A stretch of 64,000 nt of DNA from Acinetobacter baumannii (GTDB taxonomy: Bacteria; Pseudomonadota; Gammaproteobacteria; Pseudomonadales; Moraxellaceae), in the NCBI RefSeq assembly GCF_009759685.1, contig NZ_CP046654.1, positions 2,604,001 through 2,668,000 of the forward strand. Direction: 5' to 3'. The notes below the pieces were generated by a model. It was given only the letters and a program-made list of their open reading frames with translations, made no database searches and was not told the DNA's origin. Both the position numbers and the translations under genes were made by a program. This document shows positions 41,085 through 42,283 of the stretch, piece by piece. Within the stretch, counting starts at the first letter, position 1. Every line of letters begins with the position of its first letter.

Positions 41085-41372
41085 ATGCAAACTAATCTAT
41101 CAAATCAAGAGCAAATAATCCAGAGCTGGTTTGAACCGGCTCTCCACACACTTAAAGCATTAATCAAAAAGTGTGAAGAGAACCTAGAGCAAGTTAAAGC
41201 TGACACTAAAAATGCGGCTGTTAAGCGCGATGACTTCAAGGACGTTTTAGTTCGTCAGCATCGTATTACATATAACCATGCTGAGGAAATTATCAAAAGC
41301 CTTGGTCGTGCTGGGCGTATTCGTTTCTTGGGTAGTACTTACATTCAGTTAAATGTTCAGGAGACCAAATGA
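41085..41372 (+). CDS. Small early prophage protein, unknown
   Basis: A 95-aa protein, mostly helical (HTLKALIKKCEENLEQVKAD). The C-terminal RQHRITYNHAEEIIKSLGRA resembles a winged-helix end. It overlaps the methyltransferase start by 4 nt (ATGA), so translation is coupled. Not assigned to a family. Confidence 0.65.
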   Translation: MQTNLSNQEQIIQSWFEPALHTLKALIKKCEENLEQVKADTKNAAVKRDDFKDVLVRQHRITYNHAEEIIKSLGRAGRIRFLGSTYIQLNVQETK

Positions 41373-42283
41373 ATGAGTTGGCTCTTTTCGCAGGCGCTGG
41401 TGGCGGAGTACTCGCATCTTATCTCTTGGGATGGCGAACAGTGTGCGCAGTTGAACGTGATGCCTACGCCGCACAAGTTTTGGCGCAACGACAGAATGAT
41501 GGAATTCTCGAAGCTTTCCCAATTTGGTCTGACATTACAACTTTTGACGGAAAACCATGGCAAGGAATTGTTGACGTTATATCTGGCGGCTTTCCGTGCC
41601 AAGACATCTCATCCGCGGGGAAAGGTGCTGGAATCGAAGGTGAACGTTCTGGGCTTTGGTCAGAAATGGCACGAATTATTGGTGAAGTACGACCTAGATA
41701 CGTGTTCGTGGAAAACTCACCAATGCTTGTTTCCAGAGGACTTACACGAGTCATCAGTGACCTTGCCCAAATGGGGTATGACGCGCAATGGGCACGTTTT
41801 TCAGCATCTAACTTTGGAGCGCCCCATATCCGTGACCGAATCTGGATTGTGGGCCACGCCACAAGCAAGGGATTTTCGAAGTGGTCAACCCCAACGATGG
41901 GACAATCCGGATCGATCGAGAAACCTAAACGATCAAGTTGCGAAATTCCCAACTCCCAAAGCATCGGATGGGAACAAGCGTGGGAAGGTGAGCAATCATC
42001 CAAGGAACGGCTTAGCCGGTGTTGTGGAGAATCTTCCAACTCCGACTGCTTCAATGAGCAAAGGCTCATCACCAGCGACTCTGACCAGGAAAGATGGCAA
42101 GAGCAGGATAAACGATCGGCTCGATCATCATGTAATGAACTCACATGGTGGGAAGTTGAACCCGAATTGGGTCGAGTGGCTGATGGGGTGGCCAATCGGG
42201 TGGACCGACTTAAAGCCATTGGAAATGGACAAGTTTCAATCGTGGCTAAATGCGCATTCGAATATTTAGGTGGTGCAAAATGA
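41369..42283 (+). CDS. Phage DNA (cytosine-5) methyltransferase
   Basis: C5 methyltransferase of 304 aa that would protect phage DNA from host restriction. Motif I LFAGAGGG (6-13); motif IV GGFPCQDIS with catalytic Cys77; motif VI ENSP (115-118); motif VIII APHIRDRIWIVG (151-162); motif X RLKAIGNGQV near the end. The region 163-260, where target recognition is expected, is short and Ser/Glu-rich. AGGAG lies 5 nt before ATG. Its whole length is overlapped by another open frame (next entry). Confidence 0.88.
   Translation: MNELALFAGAGGGVLASYLLGWRTVCAVERDAYAAQVLAQRQNDGILEAFPIWSDITTFDGKPWQGIVDVISGGFPCQDISSAGKGAGIEGERSGLWSEMARIIGEVRPRYVFVENSPMLVSRGLTRVISDLAQMGYDAQWARFSASNFGAPHIRDRIWIVGHATSKGFSKWSTPTMGQSGSIEKPKRSSCEIPNSQSIGWEQAWEGEQSSKERLSRCCGESSNSDCFNEQRLITSDSDQERWQEQDKRSARSSCNELTWWEVEPELGRVADGVANRVDRLKAIGNGQVSIVAKCAFEYLGGAK
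41373..42269 (+). CDS. Overlapping +1-frame ORF within the methyltransferase gene, phage-like protein
   Basis: A 298-aa frame starting 4 nt after the methyltransferase start. Its second half does not look like a shadow: it has PTP/TPxASD-type repeats (LWATPQARDFRSG, FPTPKASDGNKRG, LPTPTASMSKGSS) and the ending LNPNWVEWLMGWPIGWTDL. Such a repeat series with that ending is, from memory, typical of phage methyltransferase-associated proteins. The ribosome binding site of the methyltransferase could serve both starts. Either a true overprinted gene or a conserved accidental frame; expression not known. Confidence 0.4.
   Translation: MSWLFSQALVAEYSHLISWDGEQCAQLNVMPTPHKFWRNDRMMEFSKLSQFGLTLQLLTENHGKELLTLYLAAFRAKTSHPRGKVLESKVNVLGFGQKWHELLVKYDLDTCSWKTHQCLFPEDLHESSVTLPKWGMTRNGHVFQHLTLERPISVTESGLWATPQARDFRSGQPQRWDNPDRSRNLNDQVAKFPTPKASDGNKRGKVSNHPRNGLAGVVENLPTPTASMSKGSSPATLTRKDGKSRINDRLDHHVMNSHGGKLNPNWVEWLMGWPIGWTDLKPLEMDKFQSWLNAHSNI

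Follow-up and report, generated by a model that had tools for sequence, protein, structure and literature searches.

Two overlapping reading frames at one Acinetobacter baumannii locus and a probable two-chain C5-cytosine DNA methyltransferase

A 915-base gene of Acinetobacter baumannii is very probably a dual-coding locus for one two-chain (heteromeric) C5-cytosine DNA methyltransferase. The alpha chain, read from frame 1, would bind AdoMet and carry out catalysis (motifs I - VIII), run on through about 90 unconstrained residues and then supply motif X; the beta chain, read from frame 2 with its ATG 4 nt downstream, would provide target recognition (LPTP-type repeats) and motif IX. Ribosomes making alpha would have to cross the DNA that encodes recognition, out of frame with it, before reaching motif X, which would account for both frames being open to the end. 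The two chains would be translated separately, in the window (the whole stretch of 64,000 nucleotides that was analysed) probably from one common Shine-Dalgarno site. From sequence comparisons we infer that both chains are made and bind each other, and that the assembled enzyme methylates DNA, either that of the phage or that of the host.

If this reading is true, many phage C5-methyltransferases would be annotated without their specificity subunit, and expressing or assigning such enzymes from alpha alone should fail. In addition, the two frames overlap on the same strand over a long stretch, about 98% of the larger gene, and constraint can be seen to shift between the frames along it; its nested, split and one-chain relatives are material on how overlapping genes arise and separate.

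Layout of the locus and comparison with known systems

The original prediction, made from the letters alone, had two plus-strand frames with starts 4 nt apart, both open for about 900 nt, and these were found as described (Table 1); the two start codons form the string ATGAATG, with that of beta second. The AGGAG upstream is spaced 5 nt from the alpha ATG and 9 nt from the beta ATG. C5 motifs I, IV, VI, VIII and X, also predicted, were located in frame 1 on strings that we take to be these motifs. Frame 1 matched PF00145 (E 3.5e-36) over residues 4-176 only and phrog_363 (E 1.8e-71) over residues 1-301. It has the C5-methyltransferase catalytic half (I - VIII, PF00145) and motif X in the same chain, and does not have the ordinary one-chain form with recognition and motif IX in the catalytic chain. 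Frame 2 matched phrog_1008, a family named DNA methyltransferase (E 6.2e-29, residues 64-280), and nothing in Pfam or NCBIfam at E <= 1. The three TPxA(S/R)D-type repeats predicted for frame 2 are present as TPxA repeats (ATPQARD, PTPKASD and PTPTASM), the third being without the D. The strings ELGRVADGVANRVDRL (42164-42211, frame 1) and NWVEWLMGWPIGWTDL (42165-42212, frame 2) do come from the same bases, one nt apart.

Table 1. Features of the dual-coding locus, in window coordinates
Feature	Position	Strand	Remarks
Frame 1, alpha CDS	41369..42283	+	304 aa; predicted C5-cytosine DNA methyltransferase chain, motifs I-VIII and X
Frame 2, beta CDS, +1 frame	41373..42269	+	298 aa; predicted target recognition plus motif IX
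AGGAG, likely Shine-Dalgarno common to both starts	41359..41363	+	putative function
Alpha motif I, FAGAGGG	41387..41407	+	residue 7; string located in sequence
Alpha motif IV, GGFPCQDIS, catalytic Cys	41585..41611	+	residue 73
Alpha motif VI, ENSPML	41711..41728	+	residue 115
Alpha motif VIII, IRDRIWIV	41828..41851	+	residue 154
Alpha motif X, LKAIGNGQV	42209..42235	+	residue 281
Alpha linker, residues 171-258, frame-1 constraint not detectable	41879..42142	+	regional rates
Beta N-terminal part, residues 1-156, over alpha catalytic motifs	41373..41840	+	selection weakest at 61-110
Beta putative target-recognition region with three TPxA repeats	41841..42146	+	profile and alignment
Beta LNPNWVEWLMGWPIGWTDL, putative motif IX	42156..42212	+	placed by position before motif X in one-chain relatives

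An upstream ORF (41085-41372) shares 4 nt with frame 1, and the downstream DUF1376 gene would overlap by 4 nt too if its start is 42280, where the phrog_4118 match begins. Acinetobacter phage ABMM1 has a gene 95.7% identical to this one, annotated in frame 1 only, and matches of this kind suggest that the locus belongs to an Acinetobacter prophage; the genome carrying it is 3.99 Mb long.

The closest known enzyme is M.EcoHK31I (YGGCCR), compared here through its published description; M.EaeI is its isoschizomer. The small gene of M.EcoHK31I lies inside the large one in another frame and encodes 176 aa to the 309 of the large chain, whereas beta, at 298 aa, spans nearly all of the 304-aa alpha. 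The window's system also differs in appearing phage-borne. According to PMC3404938, M.EcoHK31I is a two-polypeptide C5-methyltransferase with motifs I - VIII and X in the large chain and IX in the small one, and its recognition domain is predicted in the large subunit. Relative to that enzyme, the present locus is alike in having I - VIII and X in alpha and a second chain nested at +1, motif IX being placed here by position only, and is unlike it in that substitution rates (frame-1 dNN/dSN 0.95) put recognition in the small chain instead of the large one. The same source describes M.AquI (CYCGRG) as a C5-methyltransferase split in two chains, with IX and X in the small chain and the recognition region divided (PMC3404938); in the window, by contrast, motif X is in alpha. 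A split relative (L119) and the Firecracker gp6/gp5 pair look AquI-like.

According to the original prediction, some actinophage methylases have such repeats and an EWLMG-like motif in their main frame, and this was confirmed for the one-chain enzymes of mycobacteriophages Akhila (gp60), Fancypants (gp73) and prophi91-1 (gp16) and of Gordonia phage Derg (gp4). These have the same order of I - VIII, LPTP-repeat region, EWMMGWP-like segment and X but, unlike the nested locus, all in one frame. An out-of-frame ORF in a phage methylase gene is also known from the ShiLan-domain HNH endonuclease, described as a mobile homing endonuclease insertion (PMC11855218); in the window, by contrast, the second frame extends over almost all of the gene and most likely encodes the part with which the methyltransferase itself recognises its target. 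A nested +1 partner, as in the window, is annotated in Paenibacillus phage Diva ('g49 internal gene') and Escherichia phage K1ind2 (ORF29/ORF28, 'Mte8-like'), though not as a second subunit, and in both the beta start is further inside alpha and the N-terminus is a different one. A literature search gave, among the matches listed, no description of the nested phage family as a two-chain enzyme. What appears new compared with M.EcoHK31I is the near-complete overlap, the evidence for recognition in beta, the wide phage distribution and the existence of nested, split and one-chain relatives.

Open frames, selection and the start of beta

When frame 1 of the window gene was reshuffled synonymously (20,000 times), a fraction of 0.00045 had as few frame-2 stops (mean 5.7), and when frame-2 codons were reshuffled, frame 1 was never open (mean 16 stops, minimum 4). 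In a first set of loci obtained by frame-2 search, 80 viral (best 80 of 600 matches) and 80 from genomes, taken together with the window, frame 2 lay at +1 of the frame-1 match in 159 of 161 loci and held 2 stops, both in L146; frame 1 held 25, in 8 loci, and the third frame 2,472. The 8 loci with frame-1 stops inside the frame-2 region are L119, L132, L148 and L150, where beta carries motif X, and L091, L103, L111 and L123, whose stops have no such account.

Because this first set was picked by frame 2, a second was picked by frame 1. It consisted of the best 80 of 575 confirmed frame-1 matches, which are the nearest relatives; of the four patterns used to pick it, one falls on bases that encode the EWLMG segment as well. 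Nesting, with the motif-IX segment of frame 2 at +1, was seen in 78 of these best 80 of 575; the exceptions are L257, whose contig ends early, and L261, which has a frame-shifting indel. Over 79 loci of the best 80 of 575 (56 of the 79 absent from L001-L080), frame 2 contained 0 stops in 22,990 codons, as against 392.7 expected under synonymous reshuffling of frame 1, while frame 1 contained 2 stops and the third frame 1,418. Stops in frame 2 are not frequent among homologues, and frame 2 is confirmed to be more than a chance shadow.

The selection analysis began from 111 loci, the window's among them, in which the starts are 4 nt apart; a dual-coding length of at least 600 bases was reached by 108, and filtering to <97% identity left 95. 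Substitutions were classed by simple site-by-site counts in the style of overlapping-gene dN/dS, with no likelihood model and with few SS sites. For 30 independent pairs of >75% identity, dNN/dNS and dSN/dSS were 0.352 (0.299-0.406) and 0.294 (0.247-0.354) in frame 2, 0.405 and 0.338 in frame 1, and 1.56 and 0.93 in the third frame. These counts show that purifying selection acts on both frames; selection in frame 1 only, the outcome named beforehand as telling against the original prediction, was not what was seen (frame-2 dNN/dNS 0.35). Protein identity was higher in frame 2 than in frame 1 in 16 of 41 pairs, all with >80% nucleotide identity, and frame 1 was the more conserved in 18 of 18 pairs below 80%.

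Regional rates were taken from 541 non-independent pairs, with the bootstrap over loci and positions given as frame-1 residues. At residues 171-258, frame-1 dNN/dSN was 0.95 (0.89-1.03) versus a frame-2 dNN/dNS of 0.42 (0.36-0.50), and at residues 259-298 constraint was seen in both (0.43 in frame 1, 0.25 in frame 2). Frame-2 dNN/dNS was 0.40 (0.34-0.49) at residues 1-60, 0.60 (0.51-0.71) at 61-110, the weakest stretch, and 0.44 (0.40-0.49) at 111-165. Constraint swaps frames along the gene: over the recognition region of frame 2, frame 1 behaves as if neutral. This swap would be explained most simply if alpha and beta were halves of a single enzyme, the variable stretch of alpha drifting freely because beta does the recognition.

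A matched control was provided by the +1 frame of 35 neighbouring-gene pairs (40 came from the first 230 tried, and 5 whose reference frame looked unconstrained were dropped). It gave dNN/dNS of 0.76 (0.67-0.85) and dSN/dSS of 0.80 (0.64-1.03), with 14.5 stops per 900 nt over all 40 pairs. Residues 61-110 of beta are marginally more constrained than this control (0.60 vs 0.76), with overlapping dSN/dSS intervals. A smaller control from three genes beside the window gene (1, 4 and 1 pairs), which at 6 pairs is too small for much weight, had +1 dNN/dNS of 3.02, 0.47 and 0.53 and dSN/dSS of 0.20, 0.84 and 1.32. As dNN/dNS alone is indecisive for the first 110 residues of beta, the case there leans more on dSN/dSS, starts and stops.

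For 121 loci, the window's included, the alignment begins at residue 1 of both frames. Frame 2 opens with ATG in 117 of them and with GTG in the other 4; at the aligned first codon of frame 1 there are 62 ATG, 29 GTG and 9 TTG, and the other 21 loci have none of the usual start codons. Upstream of the beta start there is a Shine-Dalgarno-like site in 92 of the 98 loci that have an alpha start and, at 6-11 nt, in 14 of the 16 that lack one, some of the loci in these counts looking like one sequence taken twice (e.g., L005/L082 and L112/L114). In 15 of the 16 there is an in-frame alpha start further upstream. The original prediction had offered long overprinting or an expression switch. Overprinting stands, on stops and on selection in both frames, and the switch was dropped since beta keeps its own ATG, usually with a Shine-Dalgarno-like site, also in loci that have lost the alpha start codon at that place. 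That frame 2 most likely supplies the recognition and motif-IX part of the enzyme goes beyond the original prediction.

The beginning of beta is encoded 5' of alpha motif I in L034, L056, L105, L120, L123 and L132, where frame 1 is not methyltransferase-like. Beta N-termini of these six loci read MTWLFSKAL, MSWIISHAL, MTWYFSRAM and similar, sharing W3 and S6; the beta start of L034 is GTG, and the L105 ORF has an earlier methionine than the one counted here. Because the six encode this signature upstream of motif I, it is kept without the help of alpha. In distant nested pairs (Paenibacillus phage Bloom, Lacticaseibacillus phage R9.1, Escherichia phages K1ind2 and ESSI2) the beta N-terminus differs, and in Bloom, R9.1 and K1ind2 the beta start is further inside alpha.

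The content of frame 2 and alternative readings of the locus

Protein searches with frame 2 recovered both phage relatives and one-chain methyltransferases. Annotated phage relatives, as had been expected, include Bloom gp57, Diva gp50, K1ind2 ORF28 and a phPA-G gene. In the one-chain protein P0124, profile positions 100-288 matched right after motif VIII (domain E 9e-20), and several other one-chain proteins found by the frame-2 profile have the repeats and the EWLMG segment between motifs VIII and X. The profile also matched Akhila gp60 at positions 151-277 (E 5e-8) and Derg gp4 at 153-277 (E 7e-5), in each case through an EWMMG-like segment, prophi91-1 gp16 at 150-259 (E 7e-5, the last part weak at E 0.17), and Fancypants gp73 weakly, over the EWMMG segment only (E 0.018). 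With hhalign, frame 2 aligned to one-chain enzymes over the repeats only (probability 96.3%, E 2e-9), and phrog_1008 covers window frame 2, residues 295-482 of Akhila gp60, Firecracker gp5, Bloom gp57 and K1ind2 ORF28. These alignments show beta, from about residue 150, to be akin to the recognition region of one-chain phage methyltransferases.

The EWLMGWPxGW segment sits where ordinary enzymes have motif IX, and by this position and the motif consensus we take it to be that motif, as which it would act in the enzyme. In searches against solved structures, the frame-2 profile gave no meaningful match (best E 0.91) and the one-chain profile had its best stretches in the catalytic half, neither being significant over the EWLMG segment.

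The long N-terminal part of beta is absent from the four one-chain actinophage enzymes examined, and the +1 frame of four one-chain actinophage genes contains 6 to 14 stops. An echo of alpha motifs V - VIII in frame -1 of one-chain recognition regions was found in 0 of 5 genes above 50 synonymous shuffles each. In the one-chain L158, P0127 and P0134, the stretch between motif VIII and the repeats resembles by eye the beta KYDLDTCSWKT...LPKWGMTRNG module, without alpha overlap; that of L158 matches the frame-2 profile weakly (E 0.0017). The resemblance suggests un-nesting by duplication. One possible, tentatively held history makes the nested form the product of a frame swap, in which the one-chain recognition-IX segment would have been put into +1 by two compensating frame changes, leaving alpha with a neutral transit stretch; the N-terminal ~150 residues of beta, now conserved, would have arisen de novo by overprinting the catalytic motifs, and a partial look-alike would have un-nested in L158-like enzymes. 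If true, the beta N-terminal part would be a domain that originated in the shadow of a catalytic one, and a widespread example of this.

Programmed ribosomal frameshifting, by which translation would start in frame 1, slip to frame 2 after motif VIII and yield a one-chain product with no initiation in frame 2, is an improbable alternative to separate translation. A single +1 slip after motif VIII would link I - VIII to recognition, IX and X in the split loci listed below, and the database protein P0002 can be regarded as a natural fusion of frame 1 and frame 2. In the window, however, separate translation is favoured because one slip would lose motif X, and two opposite slips would be required; furthermore, the beta ATG is conserved and accompanied by its Shine-Dalgarno-like site with or without an alpha start (92/98 and 14/16), and beta is under selection ahead of the supposed slip site, at least at residues 1-60 and 111-165.

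It is more improbable still that frame 2 encodes a separate protein with a function of its own (e.g., a partner or inhibitor of something else) and is related to the recognition region by history only. The N-terminal part without counterpart in the four one-chain actinophage enzymes would fit such a protein, as would the fact that annotated copies are often called hypothetical, but beta is present in every frame-1-selected locus with full data (best 80 of 575), alpha is without a constrained recognition region of its own, and phrog_1008 matches both frame 2 and the C-terminal half of a methyltransferase made as one chain. That frame 2 is a chance shadow, open only through conservation of frame 1, has next to no probability. 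Shadows at +1 do show some conservation (dNN/dNS 0.76 in the matched control, 0.47 and 0.53 in two small controls), yet there were 0 frame-2 stops versus 393 expected (79 loci of the best 80 of 575), the frame-2 selection ratios are under those of the larger control, frame-2 identity exceeds that of frame 1 in 16/41 pairs, and over residues 171-258 it is frame 2 that is conserved, frame 1 being unconstrained. The chance shadow was rejected on selection in both frames and on the stop counts.

Relatives and distribution

Nesting at +1 was found in 78 of 80 frame-2-selected viral loci (best 80 of 600), 65 of 80 frame-2-selected genome loci, 73 of 80 loci obtained from a one-chain query and 9 of 13 phage records. 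When the locus sets, which share loci, were pooled, 243 of 265 distinct alpha cores were nested. The split form, in which a second ORF carries both the IX segment and X, occurs in L119, L132, L148, L150, L159 (+2), L181, L183, L190, L192 (which may be the same contig as L148) and L211, and L158 is one-chain within the surveyed loci. The remaining loci comprise 4 without a recognised alpha start in the stretch, odd or frame-shifted ones, and the phage records L164, L165, L168 and L172, in which the profiles failed. By eye, Firecracker gp6/gp5 is a split pair with a 209-base overlap and ESSI2 gp29 is nested.

With the window's genome counted, the locus occurs in 9 of 175 genomes of its genus and in at least 12 of 369 genomes of its class, at most 6 candidates having been scored per genome. 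Frame-2 matches with E <= 0.001 number at least 7,661 among 8,000 candidate database proteins scored, and may include one-chain relatives. For nested phage records with annotation viewed, both frames are annotated in 3 of 10 and one frame in 7 of 10.

Several individual sequences were also observed. P0002 (375 aa) has frame 1 for its first ~58 residues and frame 2 for the rest, with the precomputed domain DUF1376, and may be a natural or sequencing frameshift allele of the locus. In L026/L261, L113, L155, L294 and L307 an indel swaps the frames, and a single ORF passes from alpha to beta sequence or from beta to alpha; these could be assembly errors or decayed copies. Some one-chain relatives (P0121, P0122, P0126, P0128, P0141 and others) have a PF13403 domain, presumably of Hint/intein type, in the methyltransferase. 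The window's genome has a second, partial C5-methyltransferase match (L335, around G000:C1:3491132-3491491), next to which one ORF appears by eye to be Vsr-type endonuclease-like and one McrB-type ATPase-like. Finally, in three genomes of the window's genus (G093, G097, G104) the frame-2 profile matches in two adjacent pieces, skipping profile positions ~219-254, part of the repeat region, and repeat gain or loss in copies of this kind could alter target specificity.
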